Source: Nocardioides sp. JQ2195
GTDB taxonomy: Bacteria > Actinomycetota > Actinomycetes > Propionibacteriales > Nocardioidaceae
Length of the DNA stretch: 64,000 nucleotides
Assembly: GCF_012272695.1 (NCBI RefSeq)
Contig: NZ_CP050902.1
Location: 2,666,001 to 2,730,000, forward strand
Direction of reading: 5' to 3'
Under the pieces are notes generated by a model that made no database searches, was not told the DNA's origin, and saw nothing but the letters and a program-made list of their open reading frames with translations. A program made the position numbers and the translations under genes. This document shows positions 37,256 to 40,691 of the stretch, piece by piece (positions within the stretch are counted from its first letter, which is position 1; each line of letters starts with the position of its first letter).

Positions 37256-39784
37256 TCAGCTGGCGACGATGTTGACGAGCTTCGGCTCACGCACGATGAC
37301 CTTGCGCACGGTCCTGCCGTCCAGGGCCTTCACCACGGCCGGGTCCGCCATCGCGGCGGCCTCCAGGTCAGCCGCGCTGACGTCGGGCGAGACCTCGAGA
37401 CGAGCCCTCACCTTGCCCTGGACCTGCACGACGGCCACGACGGAGTCCTCGACCAGCAGCGCCTCGTCGACGGTCGGCCAACCGGCCCGGGCGACGGTGG
37501 GCTGGTGACCCAGCCGCTCCCACATCTCCTCGGCGGTGTAGGGCGCCACCAACGACAGCAGGATCGCCACGGCCTCGACCGCCTCGCGCACGGCCGGGTC
37601 CTCGGGGCCGCAGCCGGAGTCGATCGCCTTGCGGGTCGCGTTGACCAGCTCCATCGTGCGGGCCACGACCACGTTGAAGCGGTGGTTCTCGACCAGGCCC
37701 TCGGCCTCGTGCAACGTCTTGTGGGTGGCCTTGCGCAGGGCGACGTCACCGGCCGACGGGTCGACCCCCGGAGCACTGGTCACGTCACCACTCAACCGCC
37801 AGGCGCGCTGCAGGAAGCGCACCGAGCCACCGGGCGAGACATCCGCCCAGTCGATGTTGTCCTCCGGCGGGCTGGCGAAGACCAGGGTCAGCCGGACGGC
37901 ATCCACACCGAACTCCGCAAGTTGCTCCCCCAGACTGACGCCGTTGCCCAGCGACTTGCTCATCTTGCGACCGTTGTTGACCACCTTGCCCTGGGACAGG
38001 TACGCCGAGAACGGCTCGTCCCAGGTGACCAGGCCCATGTCACGCAGCGCCTTGGTGAAGAAGCGCGCGTACAACAGGTGCAGCACGGCGTGCTCGTCGC
38101 CGCCGACGTACAGGTCGATCGGTCCCCAGGCGTTGGCCAGCTCGGAGTCGAAGGCCTGCGTCTCGTCGTGCGGGGAGACGTAGCGGAAGAAGTACCAGGA
38201 CGAGTCCACGAAGGTGTCCATGGTGTCGGTGTCGCGCGTGGCCGGGCCACCACAGGTCGGGCAGGAGACGTTGACCCACTCGCTCGCCGCCCCCAGCGGC
38301 GAGGTGCCCTTGGGCTTCAGGTCGGCGCCACGCAGCTCGGGCAGCTCGACGGGCAGCTGGTCCTCGGGAACCGGGACCTCTCCGTCGACCGGGCAGTGGA
38401 TGATCGGGATCGGGGCACCCCAGTAGCGCTGCCGCGACAGCAGCCAGTCACGCAGCCGGAAGTTGACCGTGGCCTCACCCGTGCCCTGCTCGGCCAGGAA
38501 CGCGATCGTGGCGCTCTTGGCCTCTTCGACGGCCAGGCCGTTGATGTCCAACGGCGCGTCAGCGCCCTCGGCCGGCGAGTTGATCGTGCGTCCCTCGCCG
38601 CTGTAGGCCTCGCCCTCGAAGTCGGCCGGTGGCTCCGTGGTCCGCACGATCGGCAGGCCCATCTGCGTGGCGAACTCCCAGTCGCGCTGGTCACCGCCGG
38701 GCACCCCCATCACCGCGCCGGTGCCGTAGTCGGCCAGGACGTAGTCGGTGGCCCAGATCGGGATCTGCTCCCCGGTCACCGGGTTGCGAGCAGTGACGCC
38801 CAGGTCGACACCGGTCTTGGGGCGGTCGGTCGCCATCCGCTCGATCTCGGAGGCCTTGCGGATCTCGTCGCGGTAGGCCTCGAAGGCCGGCCGCTGCTCA
38901 TCGGTGACCAGCTCGTCGGCCAGCGCGGCGTCGACGGCGACGACCATGAACGTCGTCCCGAAGATGGTGTCCGGTCGGGTCGTGTAGACGGTGATGCTTC
39001 GAGACGCCTCGTCCCCCGGCTCCTCAGCACGGGCCCCGGGAGCGTCGGCCACCACGAAGTCGACGTGGGCGCCCTCGGAGCGACCGATCCAGTTGCGCTG
39101 GGCGTTGACCACCTTGTCCGACCAGGTCGGTTGCAGGTCGTCCAGACAGTCCAGCAGCTCCTGGGCGTAGGCCGTGGTGCGGAAGTACCACTGGGTCAGC
39201 TCGCGCTTGGTGACCTCGGCGCCGCACCGCTCGCACGAACCGTCGGCCAGCACCTGCTCGTTGGCCAGCACGGTCTGGTCGTTGGGGCACCAGTTCACCG
39301 GGCTGTTCTTGCGGTAGGCCAGGCCCTTCTCGTGGAACTTCAGGAACAGCCACTGGGTCCATCGGTAGTACGTCGGGTCGGAGGTGTTGAAGCGACGTGA
39401 CCAGTCGAAGCTCACGCCGTACTTCTGGAAGGACTCCAGCTGGGTGGCGATGTTGCCGTAGGTGTAGTCGGCAGGGTGTGCGTCGTTGCGGATCGCGGCG
39501 TTCTCGGCGGGCAGGCCGAAGGAGTCCCACCCCATCGGGTTCAGGACCTCGTAGCCCTTCTGCCACCAGTAGCGCGCGATCACGTCATGCAGTGCGGTGA
39601 CCTCGGCGTGGCCCATGTGCAGGTCGCCGGAGGGGTAGGGGAACATCGTGAGCGCGTAGCGCTTCTCGCGCTCGGAGTCGTCGTCCGCCTTGAAGGGCGC
39701 GATGTCCTCCCAGACCCGCTGCCACTTGTCCTGGACGGCCTCGACGTCGTACGTCTCCCGCTCGTTCCCGGCCTGCTCACTCAT
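37256..39784 (-). CDS. leuS: leucyl-tRNA synthetase
   Basis: An 842-residue class I aminoacyl-tRNA synthetase. The HIGH motif is [14 protein letters not shown] (about 48-61), the zinc/insert region has [14 protein letters not shown] and CERCGAEV, the editing (CP1) domain has [15 protein letters not shown] and [18 protein letters not shown], and the KMSKS loop is [10 protein letters not shown]. The C-terminal anticodon and tRNA-binding parts are complete. It is preceded by a leader peptide and a strong terminator, suggesting control by leucyl-tRNA supply. Confidence 0.97.
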
Positions 39785-39873
39785 CTGCGTCTCCTCGTGT
39801 CTTCCGCGACTGCCGCGGTTCCTGCCATCCCGTCGCCCTGGTCAGCGAGCTGTCCAGGACACTGTTCAGCGCA

Positions 39874-39899
39874 CAAAAAAACCCTCCGGGCAGGAGGGT
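39874..39899 (-). terminator. intrinsic terminator in the leuS leader
   Basis: ACCCTCC-TGCCC-GGAGGGT followed by seven or more T residues on the minus strand (hairpin 39881-39899, T-run 39874-39881). It lies between a leader promoter and the leuS start about 90 nt further on, so transcripts must pass it to reach leuS. It is the strongest U-tract terminator in the window besides rpsT. Confidence 0.88.
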
Positions 39900-39900
39900 G

Positions 39901-39969
39901 GCCGCGTTGATCGATGATCGATCAGCGCGGCTGGCGAAGAAGGAACCGCTGAGGCATACCGCCATGATA
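39901..39969 (-). promoter_or_regulatory. leuS leader promoter and first leader hairpin
   Basis: TATCAT (39964-39969) is followed by GGCGGT and the leader ATG at 39957, an exact leaderless arrangement. Just after the leader leucine codons a hairpin can form: GCCGCG/CGCGGC (39931-39926 with 39906-39901) extended by TGATCGA/TCGATCA around a 3-base turn, with the leader stop codon inside it. The terminator hairpin begins 1 nt later. I did not find an alternative pairing that would clearly break the terminator, so the mechanism is open. Confidence 0.65.
39922..39957 (-). CDS. leuS leader peptide (11 aa)
   Basis: ATG to TGA, reading MPQRFLLRQPR. Two adjacent leucine codons are CTT CTT (39942-39937), a rare choice in this GC-rich genome where leucine is nearly always CTG or CTC. 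The ORF starts at the predicted first transcribed base, so it would be translated without a leader. Its stop codon lies in the first hairpin. Position, codons and the downstream terminator point to leucine-dependent attenuation of leuS. This is inference from layout; the ORF is too short to prove by itself. Confidence 0.6.
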   Translation of the reverse strand: MPQRFLLRQPR

Positions 39970-40067
39970 CCGCAGGAGCAACGGATTTCCGCCCGGGGTT
40001 TCGCGAGGGCCGAGGCCGGGCAGGAAGAGCTCGCTCCCCACTCATCGCGTCCGAACCGAGGTCAGCC

Positions 40068-40691
40068 GTGCGCCTTCGTCTCCTGCTTCCCGTCGTGGCT
40101 GCGTTCGCGGCCCTCACGCTCACCGGCTGTGAAGGGACCAGCAGCGCCTCCGGTGGCACCGTGGGCGAGCCCGCAACCCCCTCCGGCAGTCCCAGCAGCG
40201 AGGCCACGGCAGCTCCGGTCGCCCCGGACCCTGCGCCACCGAGCGTGACCCGACCGCCGCCGCCCGCGGCCGGCGCCGGGGCCACCGCACCCGGGACCGT
40301 CCTGTCGTACGGCGATCCCGCAGTGGTCGAGGTCTACGCCTCGGGCAACCCCAAGGCGCAGGTCGAGTACACCGTGAAGGGCGTGAAGATGGCCGGCTCC
40401 GGGCAGGGCTTCGGCGAGACCGCGCTGATCACGATCGAGGTGCGCGCCATCGACGACCTCGAGGACGCCCTCGCCCTGGCACTGATCGACTGGTCCGGCC
40501 TCGACGAGAACGGCAACCAGACCGTGTTCGGCATCGCGGACGGCTGCGACGACGAGCTGCCCGTCGAGAAGGCCGGCGAGACCGGCACCATGTGCGTCGC
40601 GGTCGCGTTGACGGACGACGGCACGTCGATCTCCGAGGTGCACTACGACTCCGGCGCCTACCGCGGGAACCCGATCGTGTGGCGACCGTGA
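40068..40691 (+). CDS. lipoprotein of unknown function
   Basis: A 207-residue protein with lipobox LTLTGC (Cys near residue 21), then a long Ser/Thr/Pro/Ala-rich linker (to about residue 75), then a compact beta-rich domain: GDPAVVEVYASGNPKAQVEYTV, ALITIEVRAIDDLEDALALAL, NQTVFGIADGCDDEL and MCVAVALTDDGT. The domain resembles the immunoglobulin-like DUF4352-type fold in layout, but I do not recognise it with certainty. It is expected on the outer membrane face. GTG start, divergent from leuS. The stop codon is the first base triplet of a 24-nt imperfect direct repeat (40689 and 40722). Confidence 0.7.
   Translation: MRLRLLLPVVAAFAALTLTGCEGTSSASGGTVGEPATPSGSPSSEATAAPVAPDPAPPSVTRPPPPAAGAGATAPGTVLSYGDPAVVEVYASGNPKAQVEYTVKGVKMAGSGQGFGETALITIEVRAIDDLEDALALALIDWSGLDENGNQTVFGIADGCDDELPVEKAGETGTMCVAVALTDDGTSISEVHYDSGAYRGNPIVWRP

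Follow-up and report, generated by a model that had tools for sequence, protein, structure and literature searches.

In the 64,000-nucleotide stretch of Nocardioides sp. JQ2195 DNA that was analysed (the window), leuS is preceded by a leader element that we take, with fair confidence, for a leucine-responsive, ribosome-mediated transcription attenuator, in which a hairpin called P1 would serve as the antiterminator of the starved state in front of an intrinsic terminator hairpin, T. A leader of this kind has been described before in Streptomyces; what our analysis adds, across 147 leaders, is the gap of 0-2 nucleotides between P1 and T, the NTT identity of the final regulatory codon and the effect of ribosome position on P1.

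The leader element upstream of leuS

The minus strand carries all parts of the element. A −10 box, TATCAT (39969-39964), and the spacer GGCGGT that follows it place 6 nucleotides between the box and the ATG (39957) of an 11-codon leader ORF, MPQRFLLRQPR (39957-39922), for which leaderless translation is proposed. The ORF contains two regulatory leucine codons, CTT CTT (39942-39937), and its TGA stop codon (39924-39922) sits within the 5’ arm of P1 (39931-39901), the putative starvation-state antiterminator, which was delineated by folding and covariation. One nucleotide separates P1 from T, a 7-bp terminator hairpin (39899-39881) supported by terminator scan, fold and covariation, and seven T residues form the U-tract (39881-39875). 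While the box, the ORF, the leucine codons and the U-tract were read directly from the letters, the downstream gene (37256-39784, ATG at 39784) was identified as leuS by NCBIfam TIGR00396, against which its leucyl-tRNA synthetase product of 842 amino acids scores 921.6 bits (cut-off 548.4). Direct reading, folding and the terminator scan therefore recovered every part named in an earlier sequence-only reading of this DNA: the −10 box, the 11-codon ORF with two CTT codons, the hairpin holding its stop codon, the U-tract terminator and leuS downstream. The rarity of CTT that it had pointed out holds as well, with 1 CTT among 61 leucine codons in the window leuS and 22 among 2078 in the leuS genes of 29 relatives.

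A simple scan of positions 39500-40500 gave one terminator-like site against 0.3 expected. The same kind of scan found no sigma-70 type promoter in this interval and a good −35 box is absent, so that the promoter assignment rests on the −10 box together with its conserved spacing. The upstream neighbour of leuS is a divergent ORF on the plus strand (40068-40691), and T consequently sits in the leuS transcript with no upstream gene to end. This divergent ORF has a lipoprotein-like start, MRLRLLLPVVAAFAALTLTGC, and the intergenic region is common to it and the leuS promoter. Given that the Rho-independent terminators predicted for a Nocardioides number just 30 according to the accessible part of PMC2965389, the terminator in the leuS leader stands out. 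Rfam models at gathering score returned a tRNA alone, and no T-box, from the whole window, and the leader itself, searched to E=10, matched sX13 alone (E=1.8), far under its cut-off.

Conservation in the family and distribution in actinobacteria

A search with the window LeuS found a match in each of the 149 family genomes, many of these matches being partial at ~50% identity, chiefly in one genus, g19. Most listed genomes of this genus match the window LeuS at ~50% over part of its length within frames of ~900-1100 codons, which suggests that g19 carries a different LeuS lineage. The DNA upstream of 90 family leuS genes was then taken as the family sample, and the element was present in 82 of these regions; a pattern demanding a −10 box and a short frame that holds two or more leucine codons in a row recovered 80, and two more (L017 and L098), carrying a Leu-Arg-Leu version of the leader, were read by eye. 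The other 8 of the 90 regions contained no element by the patterns used, which counts against the attenuator reading. Relatives thus keep the ORF and its leucine codons, whose absence from them the sequence-only reading had named as fatal to its interpretation.

Among the 80 pattern-found leaders, TAnnnT precedes the start codon by 6 nucleotides in 58 and by 7 nucleotides in 22 (the filter admitted 4-8 nucleotides), a spacing compatible with a leaderless start in all 80, and the final codon of the leucine run is CTT in 70. Two leader forms occur: 38 leaders end in TGA, for the most part as xQPR-TGA, whereas the ending of the other 42 is x-TAG. The P1 segment ranges from 22 to 48 nucleotides in length, and in 71 of the 80 it starts at the first searchable base and leaves a gap of 1 nucleotide toward T; this search opened 5 nucleotides past the last leucine codon and smaller offsets were invisible to it, while the analysis of 147 leaders described below had no floor at 5.

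After removal of near-duplicates, 65 of the 80 leaders were placed in a structural alignment in which 94.6% of the cells are paired, compared with 39-57% in slid versions. Both sides vary in 10 of the 17 pairs (7 of 10 in P1 and 3 of 7 in T, over the 65 sequences), and none of 500 shuffles reached the observed covariation score, although relatedness alone can beat such shuffles. A TG just past the U-tract (39874-39872; alignment columns 99-101) is also kept, each of its two letters being present in 64 of the 65 sequences, in the contexts TTTTTTT-GTGCC or TTTTTT-CATGTC.

Two covariance models were used, R1 being made from the 65-leader family alignment and R2 from 12 leaders that all come from outside the family of the window, one of them with the peptide MRAVRLLLSEPR. 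R2 gave the window site a score of 46.9 bits (E=4.5e-10 within the window), a recognition by which the window element tests as homologous to the Streptomyces element, and a whole-genome search with R2 placed the leuS leader as top match (E=2.9e-8). Because a model of leaders from outside the family finds the element, and 82 of 90 family regions carry it, the leuS leader element is, as judged by its sequence, beyond chance. The third match of R2 in the genome (L315, E=0.031) was rejected as a chance hit, since reading of 521 bases there revealed neither a leader nor a terminator.

In the class, R1 matched 188 of 296 genomes at E<=0.01, and, among the matches listed, 112 class genomes had one of at least 45 bits; all 52 such matches whose DNA was read lie ahead of a leuS motif. 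Across a phylum sample, 29 of 296 genomes were matched at E<=1e-4, and 12 of these genomes do not belong to the class, both counts being made at the level of model matches. A DNA pattern for the TGA form found at least 119 stretches in named genomes, of which 80 were examined as loci. A leuS motif follows within 1400 bases in 73 of these 80 listed loci, and 6 end early (268 bases or fewer left) and have leaders with at least three adjacent leucine codons; the hosts among the pattern matches listed include Streptomyces, Nocardioides, Amycolatopsis, Kibdelosporangium, Actinopolyspora, Blastococcus and Actinomadura. MRAVRLLLSEPR, which is the published LeuL2 of S. lividans, was read in 38 of the 80 listed loci, as well as in the model-found L128 and L147. 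One locus among the 80, L223, was discarded as a chance match of the DNA pattern. At the level of these sequence matches, the putative leuS attenuator occurs widely, and the arrangement of its parts is unusually rigid.

The same layout ahead of cimA and ilvB, and its known relatives

Reading of 34 weaker R1 matches showed by protein motif that 22 precede citramalate synthase (cimA) and 12 precede ilvB. TIGR00977 is the best family for six of the cimA fragments, which are cut by their loci and score under the curated cut-off, and for the cimA copy of the window’s own genome, which scores over it. In this genome, the leader MSHSTIIIA, with isoleucine codons, P1 and a terminator, lies directly ahead of cimA on the plus strand (1183817-1183892; ~1480-1600 of locus L100), and sequence reading also found, on the plus strand, the ilvB leader MHKQLLVCTRRVS with a terminator (1156059-1156165; ~1480-1620 of locus L101). 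The cimA leaders contain isoleucine codons, as in ATC ATC ATT CCC TAG, and the ilvB leaders contain Ile-Leu-Val codons. The regulatory codons therefore track the gene, being Leu for leuS, Ile for cimA and Ile-Leu-Val for ilvB, and cimA is probably an isoleucine-sensing gene in actinobacteria. A literature search, mainly of open-access papers, found none that by title and opening of the abstract concerned a cimA or citramalate synthase leader peptide.

For a comparison of geometry, 147 leaders were assembled from 80 family leuS, 34 class leuS, 22 cimA and 11 ilvB loci. The class leuS set represents 54 loci minus 14 family duplicates and minus 6 in which no ORF passed the −10 filter (L130, L138, L143, L153, L155 and L193, with L138 cut by a contig end); L182 was dropped from the 12 ilvB loci, and L167, L170, L173, L176, L180, L181 and L186, which the filter had failed or misassigned, were restored by a sequence pattern without the −10 requirement. 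Folding yielded exactly two hairpins in each of the 147 leaders, with a predicted P1-T gap of 0-2 nucleotides in every one. The distance from the last regulatory codon to P1 is 3-6 nucleotides in 139 leaders and 7-11 nucleotides in the other 8, and in 146 the stop codon extends at least to the base of P1. The final regulatory codon is NTT (CTT, ATT or GTT) in 143 of 147, a count that leans towards NTT because the script picked the final I/L/V codon in the longest run and moved to the codon before it if that yielded NTT; with this step omitted, the family leaders give 70 of 80. Given that the isoleucine codons ATC and ATT are read by one tRNA, tRNA charging alone would not explain the NTT preference.

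As a control for hairpins adjoining terminators, 73 filtered terminators in 945,239 bases of loci were divided by script into 42 leader-like ones, all 42 with an adjacent hairpin, and 31 others, 27 of them with an adjacent hairpin. On reading, these 27 turned out to be leuS-type leaders that the classifier had missed and the remaining 4 had no adjacent hairpin, leaving a control that is weak because it comes down to 0 of 4 and the loci had been chosen for holding leuS leaders. Possibly, though we would not put this at even chances, the leuS, cimA and ilvB leaders of Actinomycetota represent one attenuator class, in which a starvation hairpin abuts the terminator (0-2 nucleotides) without sharing sequence with it, a fixed NTT codon stands just before that hairpin, and the isoleucine-sensing cimA leaders form an undescribed branch.

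Attenuators of synthetases are reportedly the subject of Lopatovskaya et al. 2010 (Mol Biol 44:128). Two sources, in their accessible parts, already describe leuS elements of this kind: PMC1262725 (2005) predicted classical attenuators for the leuS genes of S. coelicolor and S. avermitilis, and S. lividans RNA-seq revealed leuL2 (PMC8079986, 2021), a leaderless ORF for the peptide MRAVRLLLSEPR with a hairpin and a U stretch behind it. A translated leuS leader in actinobacteria, which the sequence-only reading had thought unfamiliar, was accordingly on record already, and that interpretation, right in outline, is partly supported and not new in kind. Like the Streptomyces leuL2, the window element consists of a short ORF with a leucine run, then a hairpin and U-tract terminator ahead of leuS, leaderless there and proposed to be so here. 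It differs in its peptide, MPQRFLLRQPR having two leucines rather than three, and, whereas the published Streptomyces leuS account is classical as far as its accessible text goes, no conserved overlap of both hairpins was found here.

The ilvB and ilvBNC leaders of Actinobacteria, as portrayed in the accessible portions of PMC1262725, PMC11857589, PMC10272879 (the ilvB-II motif of Corynebacterium) and PMC13236596, resemble the window element in having a leader with branched-chain amino acid codons, two hairpins and a terminator, and 11 of the 12 ilvB loci matched by R1 have the same geometry. Unlike in the window element, however, the adjacent antiterminator and terminator hairpin bases of C. 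glutamicum ilvBNC compete for three nucleotides (a GCC overlap; PMC11857589, in part), and the regulatory codons of ilvB are Ile, Leu and Val. Changing the branched-chain amino acid codons of an ilvB1 leader to Ala led to low, uninduced expression (PMC13236596, in part), and altering codons of the ilvB leader in S. coelicolor was without effect according to the accessible part of PMC1262725, a result that counts against the attenuator model. The LEU element before leuA in Actinobacteria, also from that part of PMC1262725, shares with the window element a leader ORF with leucine codons ahead of a leucine gene, but it is a pseudoknot in which the leucine codons pair with the leuA Shine-Dalgarno box, and it has no intrinsic terminator.

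Ribosome position and the proposed action of P1

The ribosome was assumed to cover 10 nucleotides past the A-site codon. Under this assumption, a ribosome on the first regulatory codon left P1 of the 80 family leaders with a mean calculated energy of −20.7 kcal/mol, compared with −8.8 kcal/mol for one on the last and −2.3 kcal/mol for one on the stop codon. Between the first codon and the stop, P1 lost at least 5 kcal/mol in 145 of the 147 leaders, and P1 of the window went from −15.2 to 0.0 kcal/mol. Since P1 is lost with the ribosome on the stop codon and spared with the ribosome on the first codon, it would be the hairpin of the starved state if the ribosome halts at the first codon of the run. 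However, a ribosome on the last regulatory codon, which is the best conserved of them, already weakens P1, and this counts against the attenuator model.

In the trp-type attenuator of enterobacteria, the position of the ribosome on the regulatory codons decides termination; by contrast with that system, an antiterminator sequestering an arm of T was not found here, and the start codon is proposed to be leaderless. When the 80 family leaders were folded with the ribosome at L1, L2, L3 or the stop codon, no alternative helix displaced T on average. The mean probability of T was 0.88-0.99 at every ribosome position, with single type-B leaders down to 0.01, and it was slightly lower with the ribosome on the stop codon (means 0.965 and 0.882) than on the first codon (0.990 and 0.948); T was predicted to be equally stable with or without P1, and both results weigh against the attenuator model. 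Candidate overlaps by which P1 could pair into the base of T occur in 38 of 65 and 32 of 65 sequences and are not conserved, which likewise counts against that model. Folding, restricted to helices without pseudoknots, and the overlap pairs thus revealed no antiterminator that excludes T by shared sequence, in agreement with the remark of the sequence-only reading that no antiterminator pairing was evident. Pairing of a leader TCAGCG with a P1 arm CGCTGA can be drawn by eye in some sequences, as can pairing of the leucine codons with a purine-rich stretch near the leuS start in the style of the leuA LEU element.

In the proposed mechanism, transcription would start at the leader’s own start codon, as the −10 spacing implies and as reported for Streptomyces, and a ribosome would load on the 5’-terminal AUG. 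With charged Leu-tRNA present, this ribosome would get to the stop codon inside P1 and keep P1 unfolded, allowing T to form and RNA polymerase to stop near 39875. With charged Leu-tRNA short, the ribosome would halt at the first CTT, upstream of P1, and P1 would fold straight against the base of T, leading to failure of T and transcription of leuS. Expression of a synthetase gene is expected to rise on starvation, from which we infer that P1 stops T and must hinder it by adjacency. Because P1 and T have no conserved nucleotide in common, P1 would then act by junction competition or by a steric clash at the RNA polymerase exit channel.

P1 could instead be mainly a pause hairpin, holding the polymerase at a pyrimidine-G step in the T loop until the first ribosome arrives, so that the timing between ribosome and polymerase, and not blocking of T by P1, decides the outcome. 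The T loop has a TG in 68 of 80 family leaders, compared with 28 expected from shuffled loops, and it lies 9-11 nucleotides past the base of P1, which is the spacing after the hairpin in hairpin-stabilised pauses. A YG step 8-12 nucleotides past P1 is found in 141 of 147 leaders, a count without a shuffled control; YG steps, however, are frequent in such loops, and pausing alone gives no account of why a stalled ribosome leads to readthrough, which makes this explanation an unlikely one. Rather improbable, in our estimate, is classical attenuation via an unrecognised antiterminator that shares sequence with T through a pseudoknot, long-range pairing or a structure beyond nearest-neighbour rules. 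Its precedents are the antiterminator and terminator hairpins proposed for Streptomyces leuS in the accessible part of PMC1262725 and the three-nucleotide overlap of this kind in C. glutamicum ilvBNC (PMC11857589, in part), but no ribosome position displaced T on average in the 80 family leaders and the candidate overlap pairs are unconserved. That an ordinary terminator happens to follow a chance short ORF, with no regulatory leader at all, would fit the lack of a good −35 box in the leuS leader and is nevertheless highly improbable, given that the −10 spacing, frame, leucine codons and geometry are kept in 80-82 of 90 regions, that P1 and T covary, that the regulatory codons become Ile ahead of cimA, and that the upstream ORF, being on the other strand, leaves T without a gene that it could terminate.

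The reading we prefer thus remains attenuation in which P1 would act as the antiterminator during starvation. It would turn a prediction made on two Streptomyces genomes into a testable rule, namely that a hairpin adjoining the terminator, without a conserved overlap, can switch termination under the control of a leaderless leader peptide, and the covariance models pick these leaders out of whole genomes. The main interest of the element lies in how a hairpin that merely touches the terminator could switch termination.
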